The notes below the pieces were generated by a model that saw only the letters and a list, made by a program, of their open reading frames with translations, was not told the DNA's origin and made no database searches. From positions 1-64,000 of the forward strand of contig JARKSP010000047.1 of assembly GCA_029974225.1 (NCBI GenBank): DNA of 64,000 nt, given 5' to 3'. Each line of letters begins with the position of its first letter. The stretch's first letter is position 1. This DNA comes from Erysipelotrichaceae bacterium (GTDB lineage: Bacteria > Bacillota_I > Bacilli_A > Erysipelotrichales > Erysipelotrichaceae). A program made the position numbers and the translations under genes. Shown here piece after piece: positions 16,191 to 28,764 of this stretch.

Positions 16191-17114
16191 TTAGAAGTTG
16201 TTTTTTATGTACTTGACAGCACTGTTGGCGGCAATCGCCCCATCACTGGTCGCTGTAACTACCTGTCTTAGATCCTTATCGATAACATCGCCGGCTCCAA
16301 AGATACCTTCGATAGCTGTTGACATGTCAGCTTTAGCGAGGATATAGCCTCTCTCATTCAAGATGGCCTTATCTAAAAACGATGTTGCCGGATCTGCTCC
16401 GATATACGGGAAGATTCCTGAGCACATCAGTGGGGTAACCTCTTTGGTATCAACGTGTCTGATATTCAGGCCCACGATGTTATTATCTTCAATAATCAGA
16501 CTGTCGGGAAGATGTTTGTAGATGACATTGATCTTTTCGTTTTTCAATACCTCTTCGACCACCTTAGGTTCAGCTCTGAACTGATCTCTTCTGATGACAA
16601 TATTTACTTTTTCCACTAAGGAAGTAATAAATAACGCTTCTTCCAGAGCACTGTTTCCGCCACCGATAATGGTAACGACCTTATCACGATAGAAGGCTCC
16701 GTCACAGACGGCACAGTAAGAGATTCCCCGACCGGTAAATCTTTCAGCCATTGCCACGTCCAGCGGTCTTTCTTTGGTGCCGGTAGCGACAATAACTGCT
16801 TTAGCAGTGAATTCTCTTCCATCAGCTAAAACAACTCTTTTTATTTTATCGGAACTTTCAACTTTTACTACTTCCCCAAAATCAATTTCCGCTCCAAAAG
16901 CCAGACCGTGATTCATAAAAGACATCGCCAGGTCTACTCCTGAACTGCTCTGTACGCCAGTGTAGTTTTCAATCTTATAGGTTTTAACCAGCTTTCCGCC
17001 TGGACTTTCCTGTTCCAGAAGCAAAACTTTCATATTGGCACGTGAAGCATAGATTGCCGCTGTCAGTCCGGCTGGCCCTGCTCCCACAATAATTATTTCA
17101 AATTGACTGTCCAT
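16191..17114 (-). CDS. trxB: Thioredoxin-disulfide reductase
   Basis: 307 aa; IVGAGPAGLTAAIYASRA, SYCAVCDGAFYRDK (CxxC), GGGNSALEEALFI, GIFGAGDV. Confidence 0.95.
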   Translation of the reverse strand: MDSQFEIIIVGAGPAGLTAAIYASRANMKVLLLEQESPGGKLVKTYKIENYTGVQSSSGVDLAMSFMNHGLAFGAEIDFGEVVKVESSDKIKRVVLADGREFTAKAVIVATGTKERPLDVAMAERFTGRGISYCAVCDGAFYRDKVVTIIGGGNSALEEALFITSLVEKVNIVIRRDQFRAEPKVVEEVLKNEKINVIYKHLPDSLIIEDNNIVGLNIRHVDTKEVTPLMCSGIFPYIGADPATSFLDKAILNERGYILAKADMSTAIEGIFGAGDVIDKDLRQVVTATSDGAIAANSAVKYIKNNF

Positions 17115-18553
17115 AAATGTTCCTCCTGTAAAATATCAATAATCTCAATCATATCATCAATTAATACATTTGGTTTAGCATCGATTAAGCTTTGAAGCAG
17201 CATTTTATTCGAGGTTAATCCGATTGAATAGACGCCGGCATTTTTAGCACTGATAACATCACTTTCACTATCGCCGACATAGATAGCGTTAGTGAAATAA
17301 CCCTTCAGAGCCCTGATAGCCTTGATGATTGTTTCCCTGTCAGGTTTAGGGTTTTTGACCTGGTCAAGCCCTATCACCACTTCAAAGTAATCGTTTAAAC
17401 CGGTTACCTCCAGTCCCAGACGACAGGTGTCGGTCATCTTACTAGAGGCAATGGCCATATTATAATCGTTCTCCTTCAGATATTTCAGTAACTTTGTCAC
17501 ATTAGGCATTGGTTTAACCAGCTGTCTGTGGACTTCTCGGTTATGTTTTTTGTATGTTTCAATCATTTCTGCAATCTTTTCCGCACTGGCCTGAGGGCAG
17601 TATTTTTCAAAGGTCTGTTTTAAGGTCGGACCCAGAAAGGAAGCATAGTCTTCCTCCGTCAGTATTAAATCGGGGCAGTGAGTTTCAAAACTGTGTTTAA
17701 AAGAGGCATAGATGGCTTCCTGAGTATCCAGAATAGTGCCATCCAGATCAAAGATAATGACCGGCTTCTCACTGTAGATTTTCTTTCTGAAAGCACCTAA
17801 AAGTCCAGCAACTCCAATAGCCATAAAGACAGCTGAAACAAGCATCGCTGTTTTAAGATTACCAATCATCAGTGAATCTGACCTTTGGGTTTCAATCCAG
17901 AATCGGATTACTCCATACCAGCCCAGATAGCCGAACAAGCCATCGCCCCGGTAGGTTTTAGAGTATTTACGAAAAAGTCTGATCAGAATAAAGCCCAGAA
18001 GACACAGCATGGATTCATAAAAGAACATCGGTTGACGGTATTCATAATCAATATACATACCGCTTTTCAGAAATGACAGAATTCCATCAAAGTAACTTTC
18101 GTCAACCACATTGCCGTAAGCTTCCTGATTAAAGAAGTTGCCCCAGCGGCCGATTGCCTGGGCAATAAGAACATTGGGCAGCACTATATCCGCCAGATGC
18201 AGAAACTGAACGCCGTTTCTTTTTGTATGAAAATAGATGAAGCTCGCTCCCGCAACCAGGCCTCCCTGAATTGCCAGACCGCCATCCCAGATTCGGATAA
18301 TTGAAATCGGATCTGCCAGATAACCTGCCAGATCATAGAAGGCACAGTACCACAGTCGGGCTCCGATAATGCCAAAAAGCATAATACCGATGAAGGTATC
18401 ATCCAGAAAATCACTGGAATATCCGACTTTGGAAGCTTCTCTGGTAGCTAAATAGTAGGCTACAAGAGCCCCCGTTAATATGCATACGGCATACCATCTG
18501 ATTTCCAGGGAACCAATCCTTAGAAAGATGGACATCGTTGGAAAAAACTGCAT
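17093..18553 (-). CDS. lgt: Fusion protein: prolipoprotein diacylglyceryl transferase (N-terminal) + HAD phosphatase (PpaX/Gph-like, C-terminal)
   Basis: 486 aa; GARLWYCAFYD, WDGGLAIQGGLVAG, AQAIGRWGNFFNQEAYG (Lgt); then IIFDLDGTILDTQEA, SSKM, KPKPDRETI, YVGDSESDVISAKNAG (HAD) in the same frame. Confidence 0.93.
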   Translation of the reverse strand: MQFFPTMSIFLRIGSLEIRWYAVCILTGALVAYYLATREASKVGYSSDFLDDTFIGIMLFGIIGARLWYCAFYDLAGYLADPISIIRIWDGGLAIQGGLVAGASFIYFHTKRNGVQFLHLADIVLPNVLIAQAIGRWGNFFNQEAYGNVVDESYFDGILSFLKSGMYIDYEYRQPMFFYESMLCLLGFILIRLFRKYSKTYRGDGLFGYLGWYGVIRFWIETQRSDSLMIGNLKTAMLVSAVFMAIGVAGLLGAFRKKIYSEKPVIIFDLDGTILDTQEAIYASFKHSFETHCPDLILTEEDYASFLGPTLKQTFEKYCPQASAEKIAEMIETYKKHNREVHRQLVKPMPNVTKLLKYLKENDYNMAIASSKMTDTCRLGLEVTGLNDYFEVVIGLDQVKNPKPDRETIIKAIRALKGYFTNAIYVGDSESDVISAKNAGVYSIGLTSNKMLLQSLIDAKPNVLIDDMIEIIDILQEEHLWTVNLK

Positions 18554-22408: not shown

Positions 22409-23401
22409 ATGGCTAGATACAGAAGAAAAGATAGCGGCCCGGGTTCATGGCTCGTTATCATTATATTAATAAGTGTTTTTTCAGGACTTGCTGAGTTTGT
22501 TTTGGGCAGTGCTTTTGGTTTGCTGGGATTATTCTTTGAAGTTATCGTTCCCTTGCTGATGTTTGCGGGCATCCTGTTTGCTCCCCTTATCTTTATCGGA
22601 ATTGGTATCAAGATAATTGTCGATGCCATTAAAAAACATAGAGGTGTCAGCACTTCTAAAACTGTCAGCAGCACCGCTACTCCTACCGTTTCTCATAAAA
22701 GACTGTTAAAACAGATTAATAAATTCTTTGATAAAAATCAGCAGCTGAACATTGATGAAGAGACATATCTGTTACTGACTGATAGAAATAATGTTTCTCT
22801 GGAAACAATTGATATCTATATGCGTGAAGAATATATCGGAACACTGAAAGACTATTTCAATGCTTATCCTAATTCTTTCAACTCGCTGTCTAATCTGATC
22901 AGCAAATACCTCAATGCCAAAAACCTGAATGAAAAGCAGGTTGTTGAAGAAATCAAAAAGGAAGTTACCAGAACCTTTGAAAAGGACTGTGCTTTCTATA
23001 TTAAAGAATTATCACAGCTTAAAGATGGAATTGAAAACCAGCAGGTTACCAAGGGACTGGAAGAAACAATTCATCATCTAAAGGCAATCAAGAAAATTGA
23101 AGACGAATTTACCGAAAGTAAAAGTAAAACCGTTAAGCTATATCAGTATTATCTGCCAATGCTGACTGATATTGTCAATAACTATAAACGCCTATCGTTA
23201 AATGTAGATAGTAATGCCGACTTTAAAAACAGTGAGGACCGCCTGCTTAAAACTACCGTCCTAATCAATGGAGCTTTAAGCACTATCTCAGGTTCTTTAG
23301 TTGAGGATTACTATACTGAACTGAATGTTGACATGCGTACACTGGAATCTATCTTGAAAAAGGATGGTCTGGTAGATGAATTACAGAATCAGGAGGGATA
23401 A
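22409..23401 (+). CDS. XpaC-like (5-bromo-4-chloroindolyl phosphate hydrolysis family) membrane protein
   Basis: 330 aa; two N-terminal TM segments; C-terminal KLYQYYLPMLTDIVNNYKRL...ALSTISGSLVEDYYTELNVDMRTLESILKKDGL resembles the XpaC family; near telA. Confidence 0.65.
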   Translation: MARYRRKDSGPGSWLVIIILISVFSGLAEFVLGSAFGLLGLFFEVIVPLLMFAGILFAPLIFIGIGIKIIVDAIKKHRGVSTSKTVSSTATPTVSHKRLLKQINKFFDKNQQLNIDEETYLLLTDRNNVSLETIDIYMREEYIGTLKDYFNAYPNSFNSLSNLISKYLNAKNLNEKQVVEEIKKEVTRTFEKDCAFYIKELSQLKDGIENQQVTKGLEETIHHLKAIKKIEDEFTESKSKTVKLYQYYLPMLTDIVNNYKRLSLNVDSNADFKNSEDRLLKTTVLINGALSTISGSLVEDYYTELNVDMRTLESILKKDGLVDELQNQEG

Positions 23402-23404
23402 ACT

Positions 23405-23935
23405 ATGAGTGAAAAACCTTGGAGCGAATCATTGGATGAAATGTTAGCCAAGTTAAACAATGGTGACTTTGTCGATCAGAGTCTTTACGAGTTTGAAAAA
23501 ACCATCAATGACAGTGTCTTAGGAGCTCGCTATCAGAGCACCCGAAAAGGCAGCACCTATTCAACAACCAACTATAAAACTGTCGTTCCACATATTGACA
23601 GAGCGGTAGAAAATGCCAAGTACAGTTCCAGATATCTGCATATTGTCAATTGTCTGGAAAATATCGTTTACCACAGATATCCGGAAAGCAAAAAGGATGG
23701 CTATCAGAAAGCTATCAGCTACTACCTGGAAGAAATCAAGAAACATCAGAGTTCTTTAAAGGCTTTCGATATCCAGGTCAGTGAAGATATGGCCGCCTAT
23801 AAAAACAGAGTCAGATCTTCCAACACTGATGATTATTTAAGAGGCTATTATGATGCCCTGCTGATGGTTAAAAAGATTTTAAACAATTCAAAACTGGCAA
23901 AGCTGGCAGAACTGGCTAATAAGGTTGGTAAATAA
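23405..23935 (+). CDS. Hypothetical protein, no family recognised
   Basis: 176 aa; clear RBS; located between XpaC-like and AAA+ genes with 3-nt and 2-nt spacers. Confidence 0.75.
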   Translation: MSEKPWSESLDEMLAKLNNGDFVDQSLYEFEKTINDSVLGARYQSTRKGSTYSTTNYKTVVPHIDRAVENAKYSSRYLHIVNCLENIVYHRYPESKKDGYQKAISYYLEEIKKHQSSLKAFDIQVSEDMAAYKNRVRSSNTDDYLRGYYDALLMVKKILNNSKLAKLAELANKVGK

Positions 23936-23937
23936 GT

Positions 23938-25986
23938 ATGACAAAGAAAAAAACGGAACGAGAACTGCTCTATGAGAAGGTATTAGGTAAAAATGCTCCC
24001 AAAAGAACATTAACTGAATCCGATATCTCAATATTGAAAAACAATCCCTTCACTAATGAGCCATTAAGTGATGAGCTGCAGCGACTGAAAGAAAACAGCG
24101 ATAAAATCAAGCAGCAGACCCAGACCCTGATGGACCAGATTTACAGTGTTGATTTTGATATGGATATTGATACCTTAAAACAGTCTATCAAGGATGATTT
24201 TGGCTCTGAATTTCCCATTGAACAGGTCAGTACCATCAACATTGTTGAAAACCAGGCTGAACTGAACAGCAAATTTGAATATATCGAAAACAAATTAAAC
24301 ACGGTTGTCAAAAAACAGGAAAACTATATTTCTTCTCTTTGCCGCGCTTTTAAAAGACCGTTCATTATGGGTCAGCAGTTAAGCGGGCTAAATGCCGGTA
24401 TTCTGATTACCGGAGAAAGCCATACCGGCAGACACAGCTCAATCGAACAGATGGGCAAGCTGCTGCTGGAAACAAATATCCTTTCCAACAGTAAAGTCTA
24501 CACCATTGATCTGTTAAAGTATGCCAGCAAGGAAGATGAAAATAACTTTATTATTGACCTATACGGCGCTATCAATAACTCACAGATTATCATCTTCGAT
24601 GGTATCAGTTCAATCAGCCCCTCATATCTGGGTTTTATCGAGGAAATCCTGGTTGACGGCAGGCTGTCACTGAACAAGCGCTATATTCTGAATAACAGAC
24701 AGCTGGTTGAAGCGACTACTTCACTGGTTAAAAATACTGTTTCCGAGTTAAACTTCAAGGGCAAGTATCTGATTTTTATCACTACACTTAAAACCAATAA
24801 ACTGCTGAATGTTGTAGGTTCAAGATTTATCAATACCATCTCTGATTCTCTATATACCAATAAGTTATCCCGAGATGACATTATTGAAATCTATCCTCCT
24901 AAGCTGGACAGTTTCAAACTGAGATGTCTGACCAATCTGAACATCAACATCAGCTGTGATGACAGTTTTATCGATTATATCAAAGACCAGTACCGTTCAG
25001 AAAATGTCAGGTTTCTGATTGACTCATTTGACAGAATCTATGGCGGTCTGTCGGAATATAAACTTTCAGAAAAAATTACCGAAACTTTTGATGTCAGCCT
25101 GCAGTATCGAGACAGAGAACTGTTCATCAATGATGAACCCCTGCAGAAATATCTGCCAAAGGTAATTGATAATGCTATTGAAGAGGTACAGAAAGAACTG
25201 GATAACATTGTCGGCTTAACAACTATTAAAAACTATATTCTGTCTTTGCAGGACTTCTATGCAGCTCAGAAACTACGACAGAAAGAAGGTCTGTCAACTA
25301 CTGAAGTCAGTAAGCATATGATTTTCACCGGCAATCCGGGAACCGGTAAAACAACCATTGCCCGACTGCTGGCTAAATATCTTAAGGCGATTGGCGTCTT
25401 AAGCAATGGACAGCTGATTGAAGTCAGCCGCAATGACCTGGTCGGTAAGTATGTCGGTCATACTGCTCCACTGACTATGCAGGTCATCAAATCAGCCATG
25501 GGCGGTATCCTGTTTATTGACGAAGCCTATTCACTGTATCGGGGAACTAATGATTCCTTTGGCCTGGAATGTATCGATACCCTGGTAAAGGCGATGGAGG
25601 ACAATCGTGAAGACATCATCGTTATTCTGGCGGGCTATACCAGAGAAATGCAGGACTTCCTGGAATCTAACTCCGGTCTGAAATCAAGGTTCCCTAATCA
25701 GATTGAATTCCCTGACTATACCGGACAGGAATTATATGATATCGCCATGATTAATGCTAAAAGCAAGGGCTATAAGGTTGCTGATGAAGTGACAGCGCCA
25801 TTAACTGACTACTTTACCAGAGTTCAGGAAAATGACTCGGTAAGAAGCGGTAACGGACGTCTCTCTAGAAATGTTATTGAAGAAGCTATCAGATATCAGT
25901 CAACCAGAATCCTGAATGACAGTGCCGCACAGATTGATCTGCTGACACTGGAAGACTTTAAACCTATAATTGAAAAGGAAGCTTAA
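23938..25986 (+). CDS. AAA+ ATPase, CbxX/CfxQ (SpoVK)-like, with degenerate N-terminal AAA module
   Basis: 682 aa; C-terminal GNPGTGKTTIARLLAKYLKAIG, GGILFIDEAYSLYRG, GRLSRNVIEEA; N-terminal GILITGESHTGRHSSIEQMGK and IIIFDGISS. Confidence 0.88.
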   Translation: MTKKKTERELLYEKVLGKNAPKRTLTESDISILKNNPFTNEPLSDELQRLKENSDKIKQQTQTLMDQIYSVDFDMDIDTLKQSIKDDFGSEFPIEQVSTINIVENQAELNSKFEYIENKLNTVVKKQENYISSLCRAFKRPFIMGQQLSGLNAGILITGESHTGRHSSIEQMGKLLLETNILSNSKVYTIDLLKYASKEDENNFIIDLYGAINNSQIIIFDGISSISPSYLGFIEEILVDGRLSLNKRYILNNRQLVEATTSLVKNTVSELNFKGKYLIFITTLKTNKLLNVVGSRFINTISDSLYTNKLSRDDIIEIYPPKLDSFKLRCLTNLNINISCDDSFIDYIKDQYRSENVRFLIDSFDRIYGGLSEYKLSEKITETFDVSLQYRDRELFINDEPLQKYLPKVIDNAIEEVQKELDNIVGLTTIKNYILSLQDFYAAQKLRQKEGLSTTEVSKHMIFTGNPGTGKTTIARLLAKYLKAIGVLSNGQLIEVSRNDLVGKYVGHTAPLTMQVIKSAMGGILFIDEAYSLYRGTNDSFGLECIDTLVKAMEDNREDIIVILAGYTREMQDFLESNSGLKSRFPNQIEFPDYTGQELYDIAMINAKSKGYKVADEVTAPLTDYFTRVQENDSVRSGNGRLSRNVIEEAIRYQSTRILNDSAAQIDLLTLEDFKPIIEKEA

Positions 25987-25998
25987 ACTTCCTTTTTT
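25974..25998 (+). terminator. Intrinsic terminator overlapping AAA+ stop codon
   Basis: AAAGGAAG CTTAAA CTTCCTTT followed by Ts. Confidence 0.7.
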
Positions 25999-26099
25999 TA
26001 GCCTGCAGTAGTAGTTTATATGCTATTTACCTGGAATTTAAATGCTTTTTACCAAAGAGTTAACAGCCGGTTATTAAAAGATTATACTATTGCGCCAGT

Positions 26100-26110
26100 T
26101 ATGTTATAAT
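26100..26110 (+). promoter_or_regulatory. Extended -10 promoter element (TATGTTATAAT) of telA-like gene
   Basis: Exact TATGnTATAAT motif 38 nt upstream of ATG. Confidence 0.6.
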
Positions 26111-26148
26111 TAAAGAGATGATGAAAGACAAAATGGAGGATTAAAATA

Positions 26149-27291
26149 ATGGATCAAGAAAAAATCGTCTTAACTTTAGACCCGAAAGCTGAAAAAGTTC
26201 AAGCTGAAGCAATAGCTGAAACCATTGAAAAAACAGATGTTGTTCCCGCAAAACTGGACTTATCAACTTTATCGGAAGAAGAAATTAAAATGGTAAATGA
26301 ATTTGCGGAAAAAATTGATATCACTGATACTGATGTTATCATGAGCTATGGTGCTAATTCTCAAAAGAAAATTTCCAACTTCTCTACAACCACTTTAGAA
26401 AATGTCAAAACTAAAGACCTGGGTCAAATCGGTGGTATGATTTCTGATCTGGTTGTCGAATTAAAAGACTTCGATGCCGGAGAAGAAACAAAGGGATTAA
26501 AAGGTTTTTTTCGAAAAGGAAAAAATAAACTGGAAGCCTTAAAGGCTAAATATGACAAAGTAGATAATAACGTGGAAAAAATCTGTACTTTACTGGAAGG
26601 TCACCAGATTACATTATTGAAGGATATCGCTGTTTTAGATGAACTTCATGATAAAAATGAAGTCAATAAAAAAGAGTTGACCATGTACATCATTGCCGGT
26701 CAGAAAAAACTGGAACAGGCGGTTAATGTTGAACTTCCTAGATTAAAAGCTATCGCTCAGGAAACAGGTTTAGTTGAAGATGCTCAGAGAGCTAACGACT
26801 ATGCTCAGCTGATCAACCGTTTTGAAAAGAAAATCCATGATCTGGAAATGACCAGAATGATTGCTATTCAGATGTCGCCACAGATCAGACTGATTCAGAA
26901 CAATGACACCCTGATGGCAGAAAAGATTCAATCTACCCTGGTCAATACTATTCCTTTATGGAAATCTCAGATGGTTATTGCTCTTGGCCTGTCACATGCT
27001 AAAGATGCCATCGATGCCGAAGCAGCTGTTGATAAGATGACCAATGAACTACTGAGAAAGAATGCTGAAGCATTAAAACAGGGTACCGTTGAAACTGCTC
27101 AGGCAAGTGAAAGAAGTATTGTTGAAATTGAAACCTTACAGTACACTAACAGATCGCTGATTGAAACACTGGATGAAGTATTAAGAATTCAATCTGACGG
27201 CCGAGCAAGAAGAAATGCTGCGGAAGTGGAACTGAGAAAACTGGAAAACGAATTAAAGAACAAACTTCTGGAAATCAGAAAGGACAAATAA
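26149..27291 (+). CDS. TelA/toxic anion resistance family protein
   Basis: 380 aa; LGQIGGMISDLVVELKDFD, GFFRKGKNKLEALKAKYDKVDNNVEKICTLLEGHQITLLKDIAVLDELHDKN, IQMSPQIRLIQNNDTLMAEKIQSTLVNTIPLWKSQMVIALGL are characteristic. Confidence 0.93.
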   Translation: MDQEKIVLTLDPKAEKVQAEAIAETIEKTDVVPAKLDLSTLSEEEIKMVNEFAEKIDITDTDVIMSYGANSQKKISNFSTTTLENVKTKDLGQIGGMISDLVVELKDFDAGEETKGLKGFFRKGKNKLEALKAKYDKVDNNVEKICTLLEGHQITLLKDIAVLDELHDKNEVNKKELTMYIIAGQKKLEQAVNVELPRLKAIAQETGLVEDAQRANDYAQLINRFEKKIHDLEMTRMIAIQMSPQIRLIQNNDTLMAEKIQSTLVNTIPLWKSQMVIALGLSHAKDAIDAEAAVDKMTNELLRKNAEALKQGTVETAQASERSIVEIETLQYTNRSLIETLDEVLRIQSDGRARRNAAEVELRKLENELKNKLLEIRKDK

Positions 27292-27294
27292 TAA

Positions 27295-27555
27295 ATGACT
27301 CCTTTTCTGGTTGCCTTTGGTTCAGTGGCTGCTGTTTATCTGTATGTTAAATATCGCAAAATGAAATCGATTAATCATGTCAACGAGACTTATGATGGTG
27401 ATGTTTATAAAAAATATCATAAGCGTAAACCTTTCGGTAAAAACAGAAGGCATCTGGTCAGACCAAATGATGACTTTACAAAAAGAAAGCCTTATAGTGT
27501 TACTCTGGAGAATCCAAAGTATCGTGAGAAGGCTGCTGATGAAAATAAAGAATAA
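27295..27555 (+). CDS. Small basic membrane-anchored protein, unknown function
   Basis: 86 aa; N-terminal hydrophobic segment then Lys/Arg-rich tail; 3 nt after telA stop. Confidence 0.65.
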   Translation: MTPFLVAFGSVAAVYLYVKYRKMKSINHVNETYDGDVYKKYHKRKPFGKNRRHLVRPNDDFTKRKPYSVTLENPKYREKAADENKE

Positions 27556-27602
27556 TAAAAGTCGTCTTTAAAAAGGAAGCTATCCTTTTCAAACCAAATT
27601 AA

Positions 27603-27629
27603 AACTCAAGTTTAAGCTTGAGTTTTTTA
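27603..27629. terminator. Bidirectional terminator between telA cluster and bactofilins
   Basis: AACTCAAG TTTAAG CTTGAGTT followed by T-tract. Confidence 0.75.
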
Positions 27630-27632
27630 TTT

Positions 27633-28142
27633 TTACTTTTGTTTTCGGACTGCTAAATTGCCAACGACAACTGCTCCTGATTCAATACTGATTGAACCCG
27701 TGATAATGTTGCCTTCAATAACACTGTTGCCAGCAATCTTCAGTTCATTTGCTGATTCGATGTTGCCTTTGATACTGGCATTCACATAAGCATTTTTAGC
27801 TTTGATATTACCGACTACACTGCTGCCGGTAATTGACAGTTTTGTGCGGCAGTTAATATCACCATTGATTTTTGAACCTTCTTCAGCTGTCAGCTGTTCA
27901 GCATTTACCAGACCGTCAACAGTACCATAAATATCCGCACTGCCGGCAACATCAACCAGACCCTTTACATAACCCATGATTTCAATGTTGCCACCACAGA
28001 TAATCTTGCTGTTTTCTTTGCCTTCAATAACGGTTGAAGAACCAATAACAGTTAGTTCATCATCATTATTTGAAACTTTTTTGCTGTCACCTTTGAATGG
28101 AGATTCAAAGTTTACTGACTGAAATAATCCTTTTTCTTTCAT
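27633..28142 (-). CDS. Bactofilin / polymer-forming cytoskeletal protein
   Basis: 169 aa; ELTVIGSSTVIEGKENSKIICGGNIEIMGYVKGLVDVAGSADIYGTVDGLVNAE beta-helical repeats. Confidence 0.85.
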   Translation of the reverse strand: MKEKGLFQSVNFESPFKGDSKKVSNNDDELTVIGSSTVIEGKENSKIICGGNIEIMGYVKGLVDVAGSADIYGTVDGLVNAEQLTAEEGSKINGDINCRTKLSITGSSVVGNIKAKNAYVNASIKGNIESANELKIAGNSVIEGNIITGSISIESGAVVVGNLAVRKQK

Positions 28143-28161
28143 AATCTTAACTCCTCACAAA

Positions 28162-28764
28162 TTAACGTTTAATTGAAATGGTCGCATTTAATACTGCACC
28201 ACTGGCTACAGAAATACTTCCTGTCACAATCTTACCGGTTATTGAACCGGTTGAGGTAATCTTCAATTCATTAATTATCTCTAAATCACCTTCAACATTT
28301 GAGTTAATGTAAGCATTTTTAGCAGCAATGTTTCCAACTATACTGCTGTCGCTGACAGCATTAACATCTGCTTTACAGATGATATTACCTAATACTTTAG
28401 CGCCAGTTTCTAAAGTTACATCATTAGCCTGAATATCACCTTCAATTGTTCCGTAAATATCAGCACTGCCGTTTACAGAAACGTTTCCCTTAATCTGTCC
28501 CTTAACTTTGATATTTCCACCACATGAAATATTTGAATCGATAACTGTTGAAGAACCTATAACAGTATATTCTCCATCATTATCCTCAACTCTGGTCGGA
28601 GCAGCAAAATAAGAAGCACTTTTTTTGTCATCTTTAAACGGACTTTCAAACTTAATGCTTTCAAATAAAGGTACTTCCACCTCTTTTACATCATCAATAC
28701 TTTCAATTCTCTCTAAGATTTCATCTAAATCCTGGGGATTTCTATTATCTTCACTCATATACAA
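28162..28764 (-). CDS. Bactofilin / polymer-forming cytoskeletal protein
   Basis: 200 aa; EYTVIGSSTVIDSNISCGGNIKVKGQIKGNVSVNGSADIYGTIEGDIQANDVTLETGAKVLGNI repeats; paralog of adjacent gene. Confidence 0.86.
   Translation of the reverse strand: MYMSEDNRNPQDLDEILERIESIDDVKEVEVPLFESIKFESPFKDDKKSASYFAAPTRVEDNDGEYTVIGSSTVIDSNISCGGNIKVKGQIKGNVSVNGSADIYGTIEGDIQANDVTLETGAKVLGNIICKADVNAVSDSSIVGNIAAKNAYINSNVEGDLEIINELKITSTGSITGKIVTGSISVASGAVLNATISIKR

Follow-up and report, generated by a model that had tools for sequence, protein, structure and literature searches.

Across Erysipelotrichales, a long XpaC homologue (XPA), a two-module AAA+ protein and TelA are strongly co-conserved, far above chance, shared ancestry possibly accounting for part of it. 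The stretch of 64,000 nucleotides of an Erysipelotrichaceae bacterium analysed here (the window) carries the three genes together with that of a small helical protein, ORF2. We favour, with a probability of about 0.45, the reading that under envelope stress the AAA+ protein uses ATP to remodel XpaC/TelA assemblies at the membrane; the link has good support, and the mechanism is the part that we infer.

The genes lie at positions 22409..27555 of the window, where five ORFs, all on the forward strand, have the boundaries given to them by an earlier sequence-only reading. As that reading also had it, they are flanked by uvrA on one side and by two bactofilin genes (PF04519) on the other, all three on the reverse strand. 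The short spacers that it described separate XPA from ORF2 (3 bp) and ORF2 from the AAA+ gene (2 bp), but not the AAA+ gene from telA, which are 162 bp apart. A terminator-like hairpin with a U tail (25972..25997, + strand; dG -10.5 kcal/mol, z -3.0) lies over the stop codon of the AAA+ gene, and a promoter-like site that matches by consensus only, TTAACA-17-TATACT (26060..26088, + strand), is found upstream of telA. The latter is weak evidence because a consensus scan of the region gave no more sites than shuffled sequence. The gap, the hairpin and the promoter-like sites indicate that the set is probably organised in two transcription units, the second composed of telA and the gene of an 86-aa protein, 3' of which another terminator-like hairpin is present (27601..27626, + strand). 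The bactofilin pair (27633-28764, - strand) is also found adjacent beside the cluster in a congener (L028). Positions 17093-18553 (- strand) code for a 486-aa fusion of Lgt (PF01790) and a HAD_2 hydrolase (PF13419), whose position is occupied by ORFs of 484-487 aa in relatives' loci.

XPA (22409..23401, + strand) is a 330-aa protein of the XpaC superfamily with N-terminal membrane segments, an alpha/beta middle domain (aa ~94-170) and an XpaC-like helical carboxyl terminus (aa ~190-326). Its designation as XpaC-like stands at the profile level, since 58 of 72 aligned XPA homologues match the Pfam family XpaC / Halogen_Hydrol (PF10112; best 5e-11) and, for the ~137 residues at the C-terminus, hhalign returns 98.7% between the XPA profile and the true short XpaC of relatives. 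It does not stand for the window protein alone, which has no match to PF10112 at E<=1 and does not reach the gathering score. The window's genome yielded XPA as its sole XpaC-like protein and no short XpaC.

The AAA+ protein (23938..25986, + strand) is composed of a degenerate module like the second AAA module (D2) of Clp/Hsp100 proteins (N-module, aa ~75-405) and of a CbbX/SpoVK/EccA-like module with intact catalytic motifs (C-module, aa ~414-675). Its identity as a CbxX/SpoVK-like AAA+ protein is confirmed by hits above gathering scores to PF00004 (70.5 bits) and AAA_lid_6 (PF17866, 36.9 bits), and the C-module matches the CbbX structures PDB 3zuh/3syk (E ~1e-60) and also EccA1 (9lur). All 75 diverse sequences compared keep the lysine of Walker A (K471), the acidic pair of Walker B (D528-E529), the pore-loop tyrosine (Y505), which aligns with QYIGHTAP in CbbX, and the SRF arginine (R584). 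The two Pfam domains, the Walker motifs and the pore-loop tyrosine are thus shared with CbbX, SpoVK and EccA, from which the window protein differs by its extra Clp-D2-like N-module and by scores below the curated NCBIfam equivalog cut-offs (SpoVK 310/423, CbbX 246/459 and EccA 237/467 bits). The N-module is alignable, across its large and small subdomains, to the second AAA module of Hsp104, ClpB and ClpC (E ~1e-16), but the acidic D/E pair of Walker B looked for in a Clp/Hsp100 D2 ATPase is present in 0 of the 75 sequences. The Walker A lysine is replaced by arginine in 49 of them, and the alignment is shortened at the site of the Hsp104 D2 pore loop, the position of which we take from general knowledge of Clp proteins. 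Retention of the motifs in one module, and their loss with a shortened pore-loop stretch in the other, suggest that the C-module is apparently active and threading and that the N-module is probably catalytically dead. A remodelling role fits this predicted anatomy.

ORF2 (23405..23935, + strand) codes for a 176-aa protein of no known family, with nothing above threshold in family databases and no predicted transmembrane segment; its predicted structure (pLDDT 77) is helical and has no significant match in the PDB. The proposal that it is an essential adaptor is weakened by its distribution: ORF2 is found in about two thirds of 80 loci (see below) and no copy lies between XPA and the AAA+ gene in 27 of them, making it an accessory member of the set. 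The 86-aa basic protein (27295..27555, + strand), to which the role of membrane anchor had been given, is confined among relatives' loci to the window's genus, and its gene was rejected as a conserved member of the set on this ground. It has no strong transmembrane segment, with a maximum 19-residue hydropathy of 1.44 versus 2.73 in the N-terminal transmembrane region of XPA. The membrane anchor is likely to be XPA rather than the 86-aa protein.

The 380-aa product of telA (26149..27291, + strand) is a TelA protein, as first read, matching PF05816 from profile position 1 to 331 of 332 (E 2e-114, 382 bits against a gathering score of 30). A scan of named genome contigs for matches to the XPA alignment yielded 80 loci. 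All come from Erysipelotrichaceae, Solobacterium or Holdemania, or from records labelled no more precisely than Firmicutes/Bacillota, Erysipelotrichia or Erysipelotrichales. In 74 of them the AAA+ gene comes next after XPA or after an intervening ORF2; the order is XPA-ORF2-AAA in 47 and XPA-AAA in 27, including Solobacterium records, both counts taking in loci with only the N-module readable. TelA is encoded downstream of this block within the stretch examined in 36 loci. A full run XPA-ORF2-AAA-XpaC-TelA-LemA-TPM with small spacers occurs in eight loci of sister lineages, the XpaC, LemA (weak) and TPM assignments being taken from representatives. Gene neighbourhood thus supports co-conservation of the XPA-AAA-TelA core, of ORF2 in part, and not of the 86-aa gene. 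The window's cluster includes neither LemA nor TPM; a TPM gene is found elsewhere in the genome. This TPM-domain protein (L226, 1405-2271) adjoins a 364-aa protein with zinc-ribbon-like CxxC motifs, not TelA.

The adjacency of XPA and the AAA+ gene (74/80) is tighter than the linkage of the latter to TelA (36/80), the window telA seemingly forms its own unit, and AAA+ relatives in Clostridia have no linked XpaC or TelA. These observations would suit a separate machine of XPA, ORF2 and the AAA+ protein, regulated together with TelA but not acting on it; it might, for example, chaperone a membrane enzyme, much as CbbX serves Rubisco. We regard this as rather unlikely in view of AAA-XpaC-TelA runs without adjacent XPA (L215, L220, L224), of which L215, from another family of the order, has AAA-XpaC-TelA-LemA-TPM and neither XPA nor ORF2, and of the presence of TelA in nearly every genome with the AAA+ protein.

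That presence was established in a sample of 245 Erysipelotrichales genomes, collapsible to 73 genera. Of these genomes, 126 have XPA, 124 the AAA+ protein and 138 TelA. XPA and the AAA+ protein agree in 233 genomes (both in 119, neither in 114), with XPA alone in 7 and the AAA+ protein alone in 5; TelA is present in 122 of the 124 AAA+ genomes and missing from 2. By genus, both are present in 22, each singly in 2 and 2, and neither in 47 (p 3e-14), and TelA is found in all 24 AAA+ genera (p 2e-13), both values ignoring kinship above genus. Such statistics ignore the species tree, and the uvrA-side neighbourhood is partly conserved too near the window's lineage, as would be expected if the genes stayed neighbours by ancestry without joint action. 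This is very improbable, however, considering that the XPA-(ORF2)-AAA block recurs in many genera while its flanking genes vary, and that XPA, the AAA+ protein and TelA are all kept in genomes where their genes are unlinked (e.g. G024, G467, G471, G487). A family of ~285-aa proteins with no Pfam match is encoded just upstream of XPA in about 30 loci (e.g. L070 5575-6429, L081, L112), among them many Solobacterium, Holdemania and other loci; a copy with one in-frame stop in the matched frame lies elsewhere in the window's genome (C74).

The AAA+ protein is not exclusive to Erysipelotrichales, full-length relatives being present in Subdoligranulum, where 648 residues align at 39% identity, and in a faecal contig. 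Within the stretches examined, neither the relatives in Clostridia (L227) nor that of the faecal contig (L228) are linked to XpaC or TelA. Faecal contigs without the AAA+ gene carry XpaC-TelA (L230, L231, L233, L234) or XpaC-TelA-LemA-TPM (L232). The AAA+ protein and XpaC/TelA need therefore not be neighbours, as seen in L227 and L228, where the former has no linked XpaC/TelA, and in L232, which has no adjacent AAA+ gene; since each part occurs outside the order without the other, the novelty resides in the combination and in no single family. The XpaC-TelA-LemA-TPM runs of L232 and of sister Erysipelotrichales have the TelA family and gene order of the window, which has homologues of part of them; unlike the window, the L232 run is devoid of AAA, XPA and ORF2. 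No description of the XPA-ORF2-AAA-TelA set was found in the open-access literature searched (subscription papers and supplements lying outside it). A phage or mobile origin finds no support, the flanks being core genes and the full-length AAA+ relatives in phage records being unverified faecal contigs. Assignment as a defence system was rejected, PADLOC giving only weak generic AAA+ or chance matches.

The XpaC-TelA operons of Bacilli (xpaC-yaaN; lmo1966-1967; llmg_1115-1116), found there in envelope-stress regulons, resemble the window in TelA, in the XpaC-homologous carboxyl terminus and in adjacency. The window adds the longer XPA with its middle domain, ORF2 and the double-AAA+ protein, and has no short XpaC found. 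The tie of XpaC-TelA to envelope stress stated by the sequence-only reading is borne out elsewhere, in distant homologues. The xpaC-yaaN operon belongs to the sigma-W regulon of B. subtilis (PMC3498285). Lactococcus llmg_1115/telA1 is CesSR-linked and induced by membrane-protein overproduction, under which its deletion partly impairs growth (PMC3139573). Listeria lmo1966-1967 is up under bacteriocin, and mutation of lmo1967 reportedly increases nisin sensitivity (PMC12791056). Moreover, xpaC is up in an E. faecium liaR mutant (PMC10269926). By analogy, envelope stress could be the trigger of the Erysipelotrichales set.

If the AAA+ protein is a remodeller of XpaC/TelA assemblies, the cluster would be an extended form, seen in Erysipelotrichales, of the XpaC-TelA(-LemA-TPM) envelope operon, in which XPA would be a membrane-anchored XpaC paralogue encoded beside a dedicated AAA+ motor and, in many lineages, with ORF2. 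The CbbX/SpoVK-like C-module would hydrolyse ATP and pull substrate via its pore-loop tyrosine, the dead Clp-D2-like N-module providing a putative scaffold or docking layer. The AAA+ protein would act as a hexamer recruited by XPA, and its most likely substrates would be the XpaC-domain protein and TelA assemblies formed or reset at the inner membrane face under envelope stress. The carriers are Erysipelotrichales that live in guts and digesters. Both TelA and XpaC occur widely and are induced by cell-envelope antimicrobials, with no mechanism so far; their coupling to a dedicated AAA+ protein suggests assemblies that need active remodelling and designates the enzyme to test.

The closest published precedent comes from a survey of PSP systems, where PspA occasionally has for neighbour a protein that carries two AAA+ domains, of which the N-terminal is inactive (PMC11237479). 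Likened by description only, it has the same architecture class and membrane-stress context as the window-type AAA+ protein, which, unlike it, is never found with PspA in its 124 genomes. PspA is above cut-off in 16 of the 245 genomes, 0/124 with and 16/121 without the AAA+ protein (p = 7e-6 by genome); at the genus level this exclusion is not significant (p = 0.15) and it partly follows family, making it a hint only. The window's genome has no match to PspA/IM30 (PF04012), the mark looked for in a PSP/ESCRT-III system. The XPA model (mean pLDDT 79) ends in long antiparallel helices and has no significant match in the PDB, BAR and eisosome folds appearing at E 0.27 and worse. The precedent, the lack of genomes with both proteins and the helices would accord with a PspA-independent membrane repair of ESCRT/Vps4 type, in which XpaC/TelA membrane polymers are disassembled by the AAA+ motor. 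The insignificant genus-level exclusion and fold matches, and a search that connected neither XPA nor TelA by sequence to PspA/ESCRT-III, make this unlikely. It is decidedly doubtful that TelA and the XpaC-domain proteins assemble into membrane-associated polymers which the double-AAA+ protein remodels, giving Erysipelotrichales an equivalent of ESCRT-III/Vps4 that lacks PspA. The carriers offer an apparently PspA-free setting for asking how membrane damage gets handled. Two genomes (G058, G091) have each two XPA matches and PspA, with no strong AAA+ match; in G058 the genes are in a tandem XPA-XPA-ORF2 order with no adjacent AAA+ gene (L219, 7227-9523).
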